From positions 1 through 64,000 of the forward strand of contig JACPPF010000071.1 of NCBI GenBank assembly GCA_016191165.1: a stretch of DNA of 64,000 bases, given 5' to 3'. The position numbers and the translations under genes are program-made. Position 1 is the first letter of the stretch, and every line of letters begins with the position of its first letter. The notes under the pieces were generated by a model. The model saw only the letters and a program-made list of their open reading frames with translations. It searched no databases and was not told the DNA's origin. Positions 29,330 through 62,568 of the stretch are shown here, one piece after another. The DNA comes from Planctomycetota bacterium. GTDB lineage: Bacteria; Planctomycetota; Planctomycetia; Gemmatales; Gemmataceae.

Positions 29330-29350
29330 CGGACTGAATCGCTATAATTA

Positions 29351-29407
29351 CCAGCCCCGAGCTCGAGCGAAGGGGGGAATGATCCCCGCGCTCGCGCTCG
29401 GGGCTGG
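29351..29407. repeat. Palindromic intergenic repeat, CCAGCCCCGAGC family
   Basis: CCAGCCCCGAGC...GCTCGGGGCTGG arms with CGAGCGAAGGGGG and CCCCGCGCTCGCG inside. It ends 20 bases before dnaB. A second copy lies at 52101-52196. Confidence 0.65.
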
Positions 29408-29427
29408 TCAATTTAGGAGCCCCGGTC

Positions 29428-30897: not shown

Positions 30898-31374
30898 ATG
30901 TTCCGCGTCGGTATCGGTCATGACACGCATCGCCTCGGCGAAGGCCGCCCGCTCATCCTCGGCGGCCTGCGCATCGAGCATCCGCGCGGCCTGATCGGGC
31001 ACAGCGATGCCGACGTGGTGCTCCACGCCTTGACCGACGCCTTGCTCGGCGCCGCGGGGCTGGGCGACATCGGCGACGCGTTTCCCGATACGGATCAGAA
31101 ATACAAGGATTGCGACTCGCGTTTCTTCGTCGATGAAACCTTGAAACGCTTGCGCGAAAATGGCTGGCGCGTCGGCAACATCGATTTGACGATCTTCGCT
31201 CAGGAACCAAAGCTCGGCCCGATCAAGGCTCGCATGCGCGAACACCTGGCCGCGATGCTGGGTCTTTCCGTGGATGCCGTCAACGTGAAGGCAAAGACCG
31301 GCGAAAAGGTCGGCGCGATCGGACGAGCGGAGGCGATTGGCTGTCAGGTGATAGCGTTGCTCGAATCTAAATAG
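30898..31374 (+). CDS. ispF: 2-C-methyl-D-erythritol 2,4-cyclodiphosphate synthase
   Basis: A 158-residue enzyme of the non-mevalonate isoprenoid pathway. The metal and substrate motifs GIGHDTHRL, IEHPRGLIGHSDADVVLHALTDA and LGDIGDAFPDTD are complete, and the tail has VKAKTGEKVGAIGR. The start at 30898 follows GAGGAGGGACC. The stop codon TAG (31372-31374) is the first three bases of the palindromic repeat that follows. cysS comes next. Confidence 0.97.
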   Translation: MFRVGIGHDTHRLGEGRPLILGGLRIEHPRGLIGHSDADVVLHALTDALLGAAGLGDIGDAFPDTDQKYKDCDSRFFVDETLKRLRENGWRVGNIDLTIFAQEPKLGPIKARMREHLAAMLGLSVDAVNVKAKTGEKVGAIGRAEAIGCQVIALLESK

Positions 31375-31428
31375 CCCGCCATTTATGGCGGGTATGGGGG
31401 CGTCGGACCCGCCATGAATGGCGGGCTA
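31372..31428. repeat. Palindromic intergenic repeat, TAGCCCGCCAT family
   Basis: TAGCCCGCCATTTATGGCGGG at the left and CCCGCCATGAATGGCGGGCTA at the right are mirror copies with a short centre. The left arm contains the ispF stop codon; the right arm ends 18 bases before the cysS start. Confidence 0.65.
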
Positions 31429-31446
31429 TATCGTCGAGGTTTTCGG

Positions 31447-32988
31447 ATGGACCACAATCTACGCGTCTACAACACGCTGACCAAGCAAAAGGAGCCGTTC
31501 AAGACGGTCGTGCCGGGCAAGGTCAGCATGTACGTGTGCGGGCCGACCGTTTACAAGCCGAGCCATCTGGGGCACATGGTCGGGCCGGTGATCTTCGATA
31601 CCGTCAAGCGCTATCTGACTTACCTGGGCTACGACGTCAAGTTCGTCGTCAATATCACCGACGTGGACGACAAGCTTATCGTCGAGGCGCCAAAGCAAGG
31701 CCTCAGCGTTTCGGAATTGGCAGAACGTGTTACCAAAGACTACGTCGAAAACCTCAAGAAACTCAACGTCACCGGCATCGACGAGATGCCGCGGGCCACG
31801 CATTACATTCCCGCGATCATCGAGATCATTCAGGGCCTGATCGACAAGGGCTACGCTTATCCCGCCGCGGGCGATGTCTACTTCGACGTGACCAAGGACG
31901 ACGATTACGGCAAGCTGTGCAACCGCGATCCGGAGCAACTCGAAGCCGGCGCTCGCATCGAGGTCTCGGACAAGAAACGCAGCCCCGGCGATTTCGCCCT
32001 GTGGAAATCCGCCAAACCCGGCGAACCTGCGTGGGACAGCCCGTGGGGCAAAGGCCGGCCTGGCTGGCATATCGAATGCTCCGCGATGTCGATGAAGCTC
32101 CTCGGCAAAACGCTCGACATCCACGGCGGCGGGCTCGACCTGCAATTCCCGCACCACGAAAACGAGCTCGCCCAATCCGAATCGTACAATGGCTGCACCT
32201 TCGTCAATTACTGGATGCACAACGGCCTCATGCGCATTCATTCGCAAGCAACCAAGATCAAGGACGCGCCGAGTGGTCCCCTTTCCCCTGTCGGGAGCGG
32301 GATCGGGGGTGAGGGGCAACCTCAGAAGATGTCGAAAAGCCTGGGCAACGAGATCGTCGTTTCCGAGATCTTCAAACGCCATCAACCCGAGACGCTGCGG
32401 TTCTTTCTGCTCGCGACGCATTATCGCCGACCCATCGACTACAGCGAGGAACGCCTGGAGGAAGTGCGCCGCGGCTTGGACAGCTTTTACCGTTTTTTTG
32501 AACGATTGGAGCGCGTGGCGAAAAGGAGTTTTTACGCCTTTCCATCGCCGCCGAGGGACGATGGCGGGGGGGAGTTCGCCGAGTTTCGCAAACGCTTTCT
32601 CGAACACATGGACGACGATTTCAATACCGGCGGCGCTGTTGGCGTGTTGTACGAGTTACTGTCCGCCCTCAATCGTTTTGCGGACCTGAAGCAACTGGAA
32701 GCCGGCAAGGCGACGGGCGATGACGTGAAAGCATTCGAGCAGGGCGTCGTCTACCTCAAGGAACTGAGCGGACTCCTCGGTGTGTTTTCCTCGGCGCCGG
32801 AGAAACCGAAGGCGGACCACGCGAGCCAAAAACTCGTCGTCGGCCTGATGCAATTGCTGATCGATCTACGCGCCGAGGCGCGCAAGGCGAAAAATTTCGC
32901 CCTTGGCGATCAGATTCGCAAACGCCTGGGCGAACTCGGCGTCACCCTTGAGGACCGCCCGGGCGGCACGGATTGGCGAAAGGATTGA
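31447..32988 (+). CDS. cysS: Cysteinyl-tRNA synthetase with an in-frame repeat insertion
   Basis: A 513-residue class I synthetase charging tRNA-Cys. HIGH-type motif is PSHLGHMVG after YVCGPTVYKP (zinc Cys), HIECSAMSMKLLG, HHENELAQSE and the KMSKSLGN loop are present. Residues about 271-300, just before KMSKS, are longer than in Escherichia coli and include an SGPLSPVGSGIGGEGQPQ stretch encoded by a 40-base palindromic repeat (see repeat at 32277). The start at 31447 follows TCGAGGTTTTCGG. Function is probably kept because the reading frame is open and all motifs are intact. Confidence 0.95.
   Translation: MDHNLRVYNTLTKQKEPFKTVVPGKVSMYVCGPTVYKPSHLGHMVGPVIFDTVKRYLTYLGYDVKFVVNITDVDDKLIVEAPKQGLSVSELAERVTKDYVENLKKLNVTGIDEMPRATHYIPAIIEIIQGLIDKGYAYPAAGDVYFDVTKDDDYGKLCNRDPEQLEAGARIEVSDKKRSPGDFALWKSAKPGEPAWDSPWGKGRPGWHIECSAMSMKLLGKTLDIHGGGLDLQFPHHENELAQSESYNGCTFVNYWMHNGLMRIHSQATKIKDAPSGPLSPVGSGIGGEGQPQKMSKSLGNEIVVSEIFKRHQPETLRFFLLATHYRRPIDYSEERLEEVRRGLDSFYRFFERLERVAKRSFYAFPSPPRDDGGGEFAEFRKRFLEHMDDDFNTGGAVGVLYELLSALNRFADLKQLEAGKATGDDVKAFEQGVVYLKELSGLLGVFSSAPEKPKADHASQKLVVGLMQLLIDLRAEARKAKNFALGDQIRKRLGELGVTLEDRPGGTDWRKD
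32277..32316. repeat. Palindromic repeat inserted in frame inside cysS
   Basis: A 40-base stretch, TCCCCTTTCCCC...GGGGGTGAGGGG, nearly the same as one at 61819-61858 within the acetamidase gene. It has a fold-back centre and encodes roughly residues 277-290 of CysS. Such Gly/Pro/Ser-rich insertions (LTPNPSP-T-GGEG type) are widespread and look like a mobile repeat that uses an open frame. Confidence 0.8.
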
Positions 32989-33004
32989 CGATCCCCCCGT
33001 CTTC

Positions 33005-33058
33005 GTTTAGCCCCCGCATTGCGCAGTCGTGCGTGTAGGCGTCGGGCGGGCGCTAAAC
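33005..33058. repeat. Palindromic intergenic repeat, GTTTAGCCCCCG family
   Basis: GTTTAGCCCCCGC is mirrored by GGGCGGGCGCTAAAC across about 25 bases. It sits between the cysS stop and ruvC start. Confidence 0.55.
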
Positions 33059-33080
33059 GGGGATGGGAATCATTCCCATC

Positions 33081-33584
33081 ATGACCACATCCCGCCGCAT
33101 CCTGGGCATCGACCCCGGCCTGGCCATCACCGGCTACGGCGTGCTGGAATTCTCGCCGTTGCGTCCCGTCCTTTGTGAGGCCGGCATCCTCCGCACCGCA
33201 GACGACGATGCGATCGATATGGCAGACAAGGTCCTTTCCGTGTACAAAGGTGTAGTGGAGGTGATTGCGCAATTTGGCCCGGAGGCGATGGCCGTTGAAC
33301 AACTATACGCCCACTATGATCATCCGCGTACCGCCATCCTAATGGGCCATGCCCGTGGCGTGATCTTTCTCGCGGCGGCGCAGGCGAACATTCCCGTCGT
33401 CAGCTACGCTTCCACACAGGTGAAAAAGATCATCACGGGCAATGGCCGAGCGTCCAAGGAGCAGATCCAGCGAACAATCCAGAACGAACTCGGGCTGGCG
33501 ACGTTGCCCGACCCGCCGGATGTCGCCGACGCGCTGGCCGTGGCGCTTTGCCATTATTATCAAAACAAGTTGCATGCCTTATGA
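33081..33584 (+). CDS. ruvC: Holliday junction endonuclease RuvC
   Basis: A 167-residue nuclease that resolves Holliday junctions. The catalytic acids are visible: RILGIDPGLAITGYGV (Asp), AVEQLYAHYDHPRT (Glu) and DPPDVADALAVALCH (two Asp). ATG at 33081 is chosen; an in-frame ATG at 33063 is also possible since neither has a clean ribosome-binding site. The stop overlaps the ruvA start as ATGA, so translation is coupled. Confidence 0.95.
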   Translation: MTTSRRILGIDPGLAITGYGVLEFSPLRPVLCEAGILRTADDDAIDMADKVLSVYKGVVEVIAQFGPEAMAVEQLYAHYDHPRTAILMGHARGVIFLAAAQANIPVVSYASTQVKKIITGNGRASKEQIQRTIQNELGLATLPDPPDVADALAVALCHYYQNKLHAL

Positions 33585-34213
33585 TCACGAAAATGACCGG
33601 CCTTGTGAATCGCGTGCTCGATGAGGAAGTCCGCCTCCAGGTCGGCGCGCTCGAATACCAGGTGTTGGTCCCCGAATTCATTCGTCGCGCCGTCCAGCAT
33701 CAACTCGGGCAGGAAATCACCCTATACACGAATCATTATTTTGAAGGCAATCCAGCGCATGGCCGGATGGTGCCGCGGCTGATCGGCTTTCTCGCCGAGG
33801 CAGAGCAGGAGTTTTTCGACCTGTTCTGCACGGTGGACAAGGTCGGCGTGCGCAAGGCGATGAAGGCGTTCGTGCGGCCCATCAAAGAGATCGCCGACGC
33901 GATCCAGCGGCAGGACAGCAAGTGGCTGACCACGCTGCCGGGAATTGGCGGCGCGACGGCAGAGCAGATCGTCGCCACGCTGCGCCGCAAGGTGACGAAG
34001 TACGCCCTGATGGCAGGCCCAAACCACGCCGGCGTTTCGACCAGTCACCCAAGCGCCGTTGACGGCAATGTGCTGGAGGACGCCTATCAAGCGCTCCTGA
34101 GCGTTGGGCACGGCCCCCAGGAAGCACGTGATCGGCTCGATAAGGCGCTCGCGGATGCCAAGAACTTCAAGAGCGTTGAAGAGGTGTTGCTGGCGATCTA
34201 TCAGCAGAAATAA
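33581..34213 (+). CDS. ruvA: Holliday junction branch migration protein RuvA
   Basis: A 210-residue DNA-binding subunit. The N-terminal OB-fold (MITKMTGLVNRVLDEEVRL), helix-hairpin-helix segments (LTTLPGIGGATAEQIVATLRRK) and a C-terminal domain that contacts RuvB are present. It starts inside the last codons of ruvC. The frame opens at 33548 but the conserved MITK start at 33581 is preferred. Confidence 0.95.
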   Translation: MITKMTGLVNRVLDEEVRLQVGALEYQVLVPEFIRRAVQHQLGQEITLYTNHYFEGNPAHGRMVPRLIGFLAEAEQEFFDLFCTVDKVGVRKAMKAFVRPIKEIADAIQRQDSKWLTTLPGIGGATAEQIVATLRRKVTKYALMAGPNHAGVSTSHPSAVDGNVLEDAYQALLSVGHGPQEARDRLDKALADAKNFKSVEEVLLAIYQQK

Positions 34214-52090: not shown

Positions 52091-52100
52091 GGATGCCCTA

Positions 52101-52196
52101 CCAGCCCCGAGCGCCAGCGAGGGGGTAGCGTAGCATTCCCCAACTGACATTTTCTTCGAGGCATCCCGCCGTCCCCTCGCTCGGGCTCGGGGCTGG
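52101..52196. repeat. Palindromic intergenic repeat, CCAGCCCCGAGC family
   Basis: CCAGCCCCGAGC at 52101 and GCTCGGGGCTGG ending 52196, with a long centre. Second copy of the 29351 family. Confidence 0.6.
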
Positions 52197-52372
52197 TAAA
52201 TTAGGCCTTTGCGCCGTTGCCGACTGACCTTGCATTTTTCTCGCCAATTCTTTACCGTTCACCCGTGCCTGAAATGCGTCGCCGCGTCAGGATGAAGCGG
52301 CGACCTGCTGGCCGGGCACGGTGATGTCCCGCGCCGCGCATTTTCTCCAATTTGTCAAGCAAGGACGCTTGC

Positions 52373-56229: not shown

Positions 56230-56340
56230 CAGCCCACGCGCTACGAGCCCCCACGCGCTACCAGCCCCACGCGCTACCAGCCCCACGCGCAAGCGTGGGG
56301 ATTAGGCTCCTACAACCCCACGCTAGCGCGTGGGGCTGGT
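56230..56340. repeat. Multi-copy CCAGCCCACGCGC / CCCCACGC palindromic repeats
   Basis: Several copies of AGCCCCCACGCGCTACC in tandem followed by GCGCAAGCGTGGGG and CCCCACGCTAGCGCGTGGGG. A longer relative of the element at 705. It fills the gap between rpsP and ffh. Confidence 0.65.
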
Positions 56341-56354
56341 AAGCAGGGAGGTAC

Positions 56355-61276: not shown

Positions 61277-62296
61277 TCACCTCACCACGTATTTCTTGGG
61301 GATTTCAGCACCAGCAACATAGGCCAGCTTGCCAATCTTGCACATCTGATAAACATGGATGCGGAAATCGGGGCAGGTGCTCACCAGGCAGTAGGCGTCG
61401 GTCGCCGTAAAGCCGTGCTCGCTGATGAGCCAATCCATTAGGTGAAACGTCGCGGTCTCCACGGCGACCTCAAGCGGCTTGTTGGCGTGGATCGCGATCA
61501 GGGCGTCCGGTTTTTCTATGCGCATCCACGGGATCTTCTTCGCTTTGACGATGTCGAGCTTCACCTGGACCGTGGCTTTCGTCTCGGCGGCGGTGCCCGT
61601 GAACTCGGTGTCGCCCTGCGATGCGTGGACATCGCCGAGGTAGAAGAGAGCGCCGGGATGATGGATCGGCAGGAAAACCTTGTTGCCGACGGTCACATCG
61701 CGGATATCGAGATTGCCGCCCCATTCGCCTTGCCCGTCGAGACTCGTGGTGACTTCGCGGTCGGGGGCCACGCCGATGGTGCCGATGAAGGGCGTGATGG
61801 GCCAGGAGATTTCCTTTCTCCCCTCTCCCCCTGTGGGAGAGGGGTTGGGGGTGAGGGGGAAGTGAAGCGTGCCGTCGCGCATCGTTCCGGAAGGCCCGGG
61901 CGTGTGCTTGAAAATCTTGGTGGTGTAGTCGCTTGAAAGCTCGGGCCAGCGCGTCAAATCACCCGCGGGACCGCGACGTGGGCCGATGGCGATCCAGGAG
62001 TAGCTGTCCACGATGATTGATTCGAGCGTGACGACGAGCATATCGCCGCGCTCGGCCCCTTCGAGAAAGATCGGCCCGGCGATGGGGTTGGCCAGGGGCG
62101 GCGACTTGTCAAAGCCGGGCCGCTTGCCTGGGATCGCCTTGTCGGCTTCCGACTTGAAGTATCCGGTGCTGGCGTCGTAGGTTTCGAGTTCAAACACCTC
62201 GCCCGGCTTGACGCGCAGCAACGGGTCGTCGCGCCAGTCGAAGGCGTATTTGCGGGCGAGATCACGTGGAATGCGTTGCAAACGAATACCCCCCAT
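61277..62296 (-). CDS. Acetamidase/formamidase family protein with an in-frame repeat
   Basis: A 339-residue amidase of the FmdA_AmdA family, which hydrolyses formamide or acetamide. Typical segments: GGNLDIRDVTVGNKVFLPI, PGALFYLGDVHASQGDTEFTGTA and IHANKPLEVAVE. Residues about 147-160 (LTPNPSPTGGEGR) are encoded by a palindromic repeat, the same unit as in cysS. ATG at 62296 is chosen, 11 bases after the YoeB stop; TTG at 62332 would overlap it. The activity is likely kept because the insertion is in a surface loop (inference). Confidence 0.88.
   Translation of the reverse strand: MGGIRLQRIPRDLARKYAFDWRDDPLLRVKPGEVFELETYDASTGYFKSEADKAIPGKRPGFDKSPPLANPIAGPIFLEGAERGDMLVVTLESIIVDSYSWIAIGPRRGPAGDLTRWPELSSDYTTKIFKHTPGPSGTMRDGTLHFPLTPNPSPTGGEGRKEISWPITPFIGTIGVAPDREVTTSLDGQGEWGGNLDIRDVTVGNKVFLPIHHPGALFYLGDVHASQGDTEFTGTAAETKATVQVKLDIVKAKKIPWMRIEKPDALIAIHANKPLEVAVETATFHLMDWLISEHGFTATDAYCLVSTCPDFRIHVYQMCKIGKLAYVAGAEIPKKYVVR
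61819..61858. repeat. Palindromic repeat inserted in frame inside the acetamidase gene
   Basis: TCCCCTCTCCCC...GGGGGTGAGGGG, 40 bases, aligning along its length with 32277-32316. It encodes PLTPNPSPTGGEGR in the minus-strand gene. Confidence 0.85.
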
Positions 62297-62307
62297 CAAG
62301 TAGCTGC

Positions 62308-62568
62308 TCACTTGTCGTAGTGATACCGGCAAGCGATCCCAATCAATGTGTCTTCCGATACCGTGTAGACCAAACGGTGCTCATCGTTGATTCGACGTGA
62401 CCAGTATCCGGACAAGTCGCCCTTGAGCGGTTCCGGCTTGCCGACCCCTTCAAACGGCGGCCGGATAATGTCTTGCACAAGCTGATTGAGTCGCTTGAGA
62501 AGCTTGCGATCATGCTTGACAAACCACTGGTAGTCATCCCAGGCCGATGGCGTAATGGTCAGGTTCAT
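62308..62568 (-). CDS. yoeB: YoeB-type toxin of a type II toxin-antitoxin pair
   Basis: An 86-residue ribosome-dependent mRNA interferase. It begins WDDYQWFVKHDRKLLKRLNQL, then PFEGVGKPEPLKGDLSGYWSRRI and ends HRLVYTVSEDTLIGIACRYHYDK; the catalytic Glu, Arg and His-Tyr are retained. The start codon overlaps the antitoxin stop as ATGA. The protein looks intact. Confidence 0.92.
   Translation of the reverse strand: MNLTITPSAWDDYQWFVKHDRKLLKRLNQLVQDIIRPPFEGVGKPEPLKGDLSGYWSRRINDEHRLVYTVSEDTLIGIACRYHYDK

Follow-up and report, generated by a model that had tools for sequence, protein, structure and literature searches.

How does a 40-base repeat come to lie in frame within the gene of an aminoacyl-tRNA synthetase, a few codons from its catalytic loop, and what does it mean for the enzyme? 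The question is raised by cysS, the essential gene for cysteinyl-tRNA synthetase (CysRS), in a stretch of 64,000 nucleotides from a Gemmataceae draft genome, here called the window. A sequence-only reading had taken the insert for a palindromic repeat of a mobile family that tolerates coding sequence. Here, the insert is compared with the CysRS of relatives, its family is followed through the genome and through 58 related genomes, and the ways in which the insert can be explained are weighed against each other.

Results

The insert in cysS

The cysS product matches solved CysRS structures with E-values down to 2.1e-129. Its nearest named relatives are CysRS from Gemmataceae drafts, the best with 69% identity, and tblastn gives one match to it in its own genome, a 7.2-Mb draft in 183 contigs. 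A covariance model of the repeat family aligns with the cysS copy over its full length (positions 1-40, E 1.1e-10), so that the repeat stands exactly where the sequence-only reading had put it (Table 1). It encodes residues 277-290 of the enzyme, GPLSPVGSGIGGEG, which are followed by QPQ and then by KMSKS. The insert is thus, as had been claimed, Gly/Pro/Ser-rich and placed beside the catalytic loop, past the catalytic core and ahead of KMSKS. In an AlphaFold model built with 28 sequences (mean pLDDT 87.4), pLDDT drops below 50 only at residues 268-288, which cover most of the insert, and this stretch is predicted to be disordered.

That the repeat is palindromic holds for the family, which is of the hairpin type, but no longer for the cysS copy itself, which has lost part of the pairing: its ten-base arms, as judged by eye, have two mismatches and one wobble. 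The DNA fold of this copy is ordinary (z -1.1), and that of the second copy in the window, in an acetamidase/formamidase gene, has a z of -2.2. An Rfam search of the cysS region (31000-34000) gave nothing relevant, its one match being a weak microRNA match with E 0.48. The interval between ispF and cysS holds, in addition, a 23-base inverted repeat with 96% complementarity (31371-31429, AGCCCGCCAT...ATGGCGGGCT).

The acetamidase copy lies on the same DNA strand as the cysS copy, and as its gene is on the minus strand it is read antisense, in another frame, as LTPNPSPTGGEG. At this site the gene has 39 nt more than the orthologs of five congeners out of five. One family model matches both copies, which bears out the earlier proposal that they are of the same family.

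Table 1. Features of the window, with the evidence for each.
Feature	Position	Strand	Evidence
cysS, cysteinyl-tRNA synthetase, 513 aa	31447-32988	+	ORF; one tblastn match in own genome
Repeat copy (putative TM-like family), 40 bases, in frame in cysS	32277-32316	+	family-model match, 52.2 bits
KMSKS codons, residues 294-298, 3 residues past insert	32326-32340	+	sequence, translation
Acetamidase/formamidase open frame, stop to stop, start codon not fixed	61280-62380	-	Pfam FmdA_AmdA, E 4.5e-28
Second window copy of the repeat, antisense to the acetamidase/formamidase gene	61819-61858	+	family model, 66.5 bits

The insert compared with the CysRS of relatives

The repeat is missing from CysRS in all six sampled congeners. 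The three closest have an empty site of the same length, with the loop KIKDAKPGDEEPQKMSKS or a near variant, and in comparison with these three the loop of the window, KIKDAPSGPLSPVGSGIGGEGQPQKMSKS, has a net gain of 33 nt with the frame kept. The remaining three have a short loop of another type, with KMAGS. A target loss of about 7 nt in cysS is therefore an estimate, in which the ancestral loop is taken from congeners of which three in six have the shorter loop type. Among 41 other CysRS, the search covered 38 (the loop pattern missed three), and none of these 38 has the repeat motif: their best stem match has at least 9 mismatches in the 27 stem bases, compared with 2 in the window. It follows from these absences that the cysS insert is not ancestral; it is young. 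An insert present in all planctomycete CysRS, which the sequence-only reading had named as the mark of an ancestral feature, is not what the alignment gives, while the length of the loop before KMSKS does vary across planctomycetes.

Two further observations concern the same protein. In the CysRS of G002, G003, G005 and many other Gemmataceae (L016, L019, L025-L030, L032, L035-L038), KMSKS is replaced by KMAGS, by which the second lysine of the class I signature is lost in an otherwise conserved CysRS, and close congeners differ in this respect. The congener alignments break at the loop, which had prompted the idea of a two-part history of CysRS; it was dropped, since the same three closest congeners are found for both halves (17 compared).

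The repeat family and its known likenesses

A query of 61 bases around the cysS copy finds 49 places in the genome, itself included. The family model, built from the 27 of 35 copies that are of equal length (other loop lengths were misplaced in the alignment), finds at least 151. The consensus is TCCCCTCTCCCC-TTGC-GGGAGAGGGG-TC-GGGGGTGAGGGG, the length of the element is mostly 38, 40 or 41 bases, and conservation ends within a few bases of it on both sides, the 5' flank having a T-rich stretch. Stops are absent from five of the element's six frames, and the peptides these encode are rich in Pro, Gly and Ser. By its sequence the family would be able to form hairpins and, potentially, triplexes. 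Among the 59 genomes (this one and 58 relatives) it is found in 36, patchily and with from one to more than 100 copies in each. In G002 (L458-L487) most of the best matches are to a form of 45-47 bases whose first loop is longer, and these are mostly paired and extragenic.

The closest likeness in print is to TM-ECO, the PIT intrastrand triplex motif of E. coli, with the pattern CCCTCNCCC-N3-6-GGGNGAGGG-N3-GGGNGAGGG and one mismatch allowed; Holder et al. (2015, PMC4666352) place it always between genes in strain MG1655. Both families have a C-rich arm, a G-rich arm and a second G-rich arm, in the same order and with nearly the same letters, and both occur in many copies whose close pairs are inverted. 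They differ in that TM-ECO has nine triads per stem and the planctomycete family ten, and in that TM-ECO is intergenic in MG1655 whereas more than half of the sampled copies here appear to lie in genes (see below). The literal pattern, with a second loop of 3 nt, fits only 2 of 163 copies, a second loop of 3-6 nt brings this to 132, and a ten-triad form fits 127; hence the name TM-like, for what appears from its sequence to be a ten-triad relative of TM-ECO. The cysS copy fits neither the literal, the looser nor the ten-triad pattern.

Other known systems share the habit of lying within genes. Rickettsia palindromic elements (RPE), as summarized in Di Nocera et al. (2013, PMC3733652), are short palindromic repeats that occur in frame in many proteins unrelated to one another, some of them essential; the same summary names tRNA synthetases and R. 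conorii DnaE among the carriers of intragenic REPs and Rickettsia elements, and gives R. conorii RPE sequences an end in CGTC. In-frame presence in many proteins with empty orthologs is found here also, but the host is a Gemmataceae planctomycete and the CGTC tag is lacking, the comparison with RPE being one of descriptions (PMC3733652). The GTAG/CGTC REPs described in that paper likewise occur in genes, those for tRNA synthetases among them, and form inverted dimers; they are mostly intergenic, whereas most of the isolated copies of the present family, 68 of 92, lie within genes. The flank profile of 148 copies shows neither a GTAG nor a CGTC tag, and the consensus ends in GGGTGAGGG(G). Close pairs of the BIME/REPIN type are present, 27 of 37 being inverted (+- arrangement). 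Target-site duplication of the MITE type does not rise above shuffles in 163 copies, the flank repeats having a mean of 1.29 versus 1.53.

Copies inside genes

To see how the copies are distributed with respect to genes, consider the 163 that were classed by the codon usage of their 210-nt flanks (all but five of 150 listed places were taken). The coding calls rest on codon usage and Pfam, and the codon score chose the right frame in 84% of the 147 segments of its own training set. In 92 copies both flanks are coding in one frame, which is open through the element, and in 4 the flanks are coding with the frame shifted; of the other 67, 37 have coding sequence on a single side and 20 have it on opposite strands, while 10 have none on either side. 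A same-frame case with a stop in the element is not found among the 163. Of 2332 random positions drawn from these loci, 55.5% are same-frame, which is the rate of the copies, and it follows that the copies show no avoidance of genes. The tolerance of coding sequence suspected by the sequence-only reading is therefore a genome-wide property. With retrained scores the same-frame copies number 91 of 157 and 91 of 158. The frame is kept in 91 of 95 cases against an expectation of one third (p 2e-38).

The coding copies are divided into 48 sense and 44 antisense, and all five stop-free frames are used, while the frame that reads TGA is used by none of the 92. Sense frame 0 is taken by 37 of them, more than the expected one in five (p 1e-5), and the excess may come from its Gly/Ser-rich peptide being the one that proteins tolerate best. 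Coding copies and the rest are alike in their number of mismatches (Mann-Whitney p 0.93), and among copies of the window's genome (G000) without stem mismatch 44 of 80 are in frame.

The occupancy of genes differs between lineages. For the other genomes the 30 best-scoring loci were classified in each, and for G000 nearly all. Within the genus, same-frame copies amount to 15 of 34 in G006 and 7 of 44 in G002. In three other genera they amount to 2 of 42 (G042), 1 of 19 (G022) and 0 of 62 (G034), or 0-5%, compared with 55-71% in the random-position controls. Outside the genus the family is thus mostly extragenic, as expected of REP. The difference in same-frame copies between G000 and G042, calculated from retrained-score counts, has a p of 3e-10.

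Host proteins and empty sites

Pfam was run on 40 of the 92 coding copies, picked mostly for higher codon scores. All 40 encoded proteins have a Pfam match, 39 of them above the curated cut-off, and in 25 of 40, counted by hand, the element lies inside the best stretch of an above-cut-off match. The latter hosts include DnaE, AspRS, GatB, TrpA, SelA, PurH, KdpA, an amidase, a ParA-like ATPase and two acyl-CoA dehydrogenases. Among the repeat-carrying frames, the large ones at L118 and L168 match the hydrazine synthase alpha middle domain with E about 1e-12.

For 22 genes, chosen as conserved, congener orthologs were sought and were found for 21, KdpA (L080) being the exception. TM-free orthologs exist for all 21, and when each genome is represented by its best ortholog, 81 of the 90 sites compared are TM-free. 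The motif is shared at the same place in the other 9, which concern TrpA, PdxA, a MiaB-like protein, an amidase, a polyprenyl synthase-like protein, an asparaginase, an Hsp70-like protein (in two genomes) and a lactate racemase-like protein. At the 13 sites where the TM-free orthologs agree on length, elements of 38-41 nt give net gains of 24-54 nt, all of them multiples of three; at L081, L181, L135, L142 and L126, where the TM-free orthologs differ in loop length, the alignment is loose. Aligned as DNA, ten sites (L057 poorly resolved) show that the element replaces or adds to a few bases. Filled and empty sites together with the absence of target-site duplication fit a course of events in which insertion ends are imprecise and frame is then selected for.

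At three of the sites, L234 (ParA), L258 (Lhr helicase) and L265 (xylose isomerase-like), the loops in question carry another insert peptide, REGEAPAEP and the like, in G006. This suggests that a second repeat family uses the same insertion-tolerant places.

Candidates for mobilisation

The filled and empty sites support the earlier description of the family as mobile, but no transposase tied to the repeat was found. The genome has 11 Y1_Tnp places; there is no repeat copy within 1.5 kb of the first 8 loci, and two others have one at about 1 kb. Over the 59 genomes the number of copies correlates with the number of Y1_Tnp (rho 0.46, p 2e-4), which may be explained by shared ancestry, and there are exceptions: G049 has 83 copies and no Y1_Tnp, and G035 has 11 Y1_Tnp and no copies. 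Candidate agents of dispersal are a Y1/RAYT-type transposase acting in trans and replication-linked copying of the folded strand.

The window also holds another palindromic family, ACCAGCCCC...GGGGCTGGT, in inverted pairs (29342-29416, 52095-52202, 56271-56345, 732-756). The peptide SPTRKRG, which this family may encode, precedes the Y1_Tnp frame in L454, the link being a guess. In L456 (163-480), tandem peptide repeats of the RRQAGKPDL type stand upstream of the Y1_Tnp domain in one open frame.

Discussion

The cysS insert is very probably a copy of a dispersed, hairpin-forming and potentially triplex-forming TM-like repeat of about 38-41 bp, whose dispersal is blind to genes and whose frame-keeping insertions survive. 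The repeat would be copied to new sites irrespective of genes, often at the net cost of a little target sequence. Insertions would persist only when the net change in length is a multiple of three and the site is a flexible loop. The element would suit such survival because five of its six frames are without stops and encode Pro/Gly/Ser-rich peptides. In CysRS, a loop before KMSKS that was already variable and disordered would have been lengthened, and the insert is probably near-neutral. No transposition event was seen. Two findings run counter to this account: the excess of one frame is not what a purely neutral history predicts, and the intragenic share is lower in the sampled loci of the congener G002 than in G000.

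The frame excess is also what speaks for an insert kept for its effect on the enzyme, for instance on the motion of the KMSKS loop, and likewise in the other hosts. Its place three residues before KMSKS and the sharing of TM at 9 of 90 ortholog sites point the same way. The use of all stop-free frames and both strands implies, however, that the copies have no common peptide, the hosts are unrelated, the CysRS stretch is predicted to be disordered and the fold of the cysS copy has decayed, so that such exaptation is unlikely. Less likely still is that the peptides are absent from the finished proteins, through RNA excision or ribosome bypass. Known bypassed elements are, like these, GC-rich hairpins, but excision would require neither that the frame be kept (92 versus 4) nor that frames with stops go unused.

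Natural length variation before KMSKS would agree with an old planctomycete loop whose likeness to the repeat is due to chance or GC-rich convergence. The full-length family match, the closest congeners without the repeat and its absence from every searched CysRS speak against this, and it is refuted for the sampled relatives; we regard it as highly improbable. We give as little credence to an artefact in which contigs were joined at the repeat. The genome is indeed a draft in many contigs, but at all 21 sites compared the two flanks align to a single congener gene, inserts of this kind are also present in congeners that were assembled separately, and the repeat is shorter than ordinary sequencing reads. 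Dispersal of the repeat irrespective of genes, with survival of in-frame copies, thus remains the preferred account.

No report of coding TM copies was found in the open-access literature, nor any mention of the repeat peptides; neither the coding insertion of a triplex-type family nor a genome in which such a family occupies genes at chance level was met with there. There is an even chance, in our estimate, that the following broader statement is right: in one lineage, a repeat that elsewhere is extragenic is now a general protein-insert element, which enters genes at the chance rate, in both orientations and in all stop-free frames, the loops in question being occupied in congeners by this family or by other repeat peptides. 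It would point to a dispersal of the repeat's own that is blind to genes, to ends imprecise enough for some insertions to survive in frame, and to a lasting supply of novel segments in core enzymes.

Intergenic copies make poor empty sites. With dozens of copies in conserved genes, a base-by-base alignment of occupied and empty sites between sibling genomes is possible, and insertion ends, target loss, strand and frame thereby become testable. Peptides of this kind will recur across unrelated annotated proteins, which is a warning for their interpretation. For the biology of the family, the findings indicate that a dispersed repeat can supply genes for a polymerase, a tRNA synthetase or an amidotransferase with an additional segment of about 13 residues.
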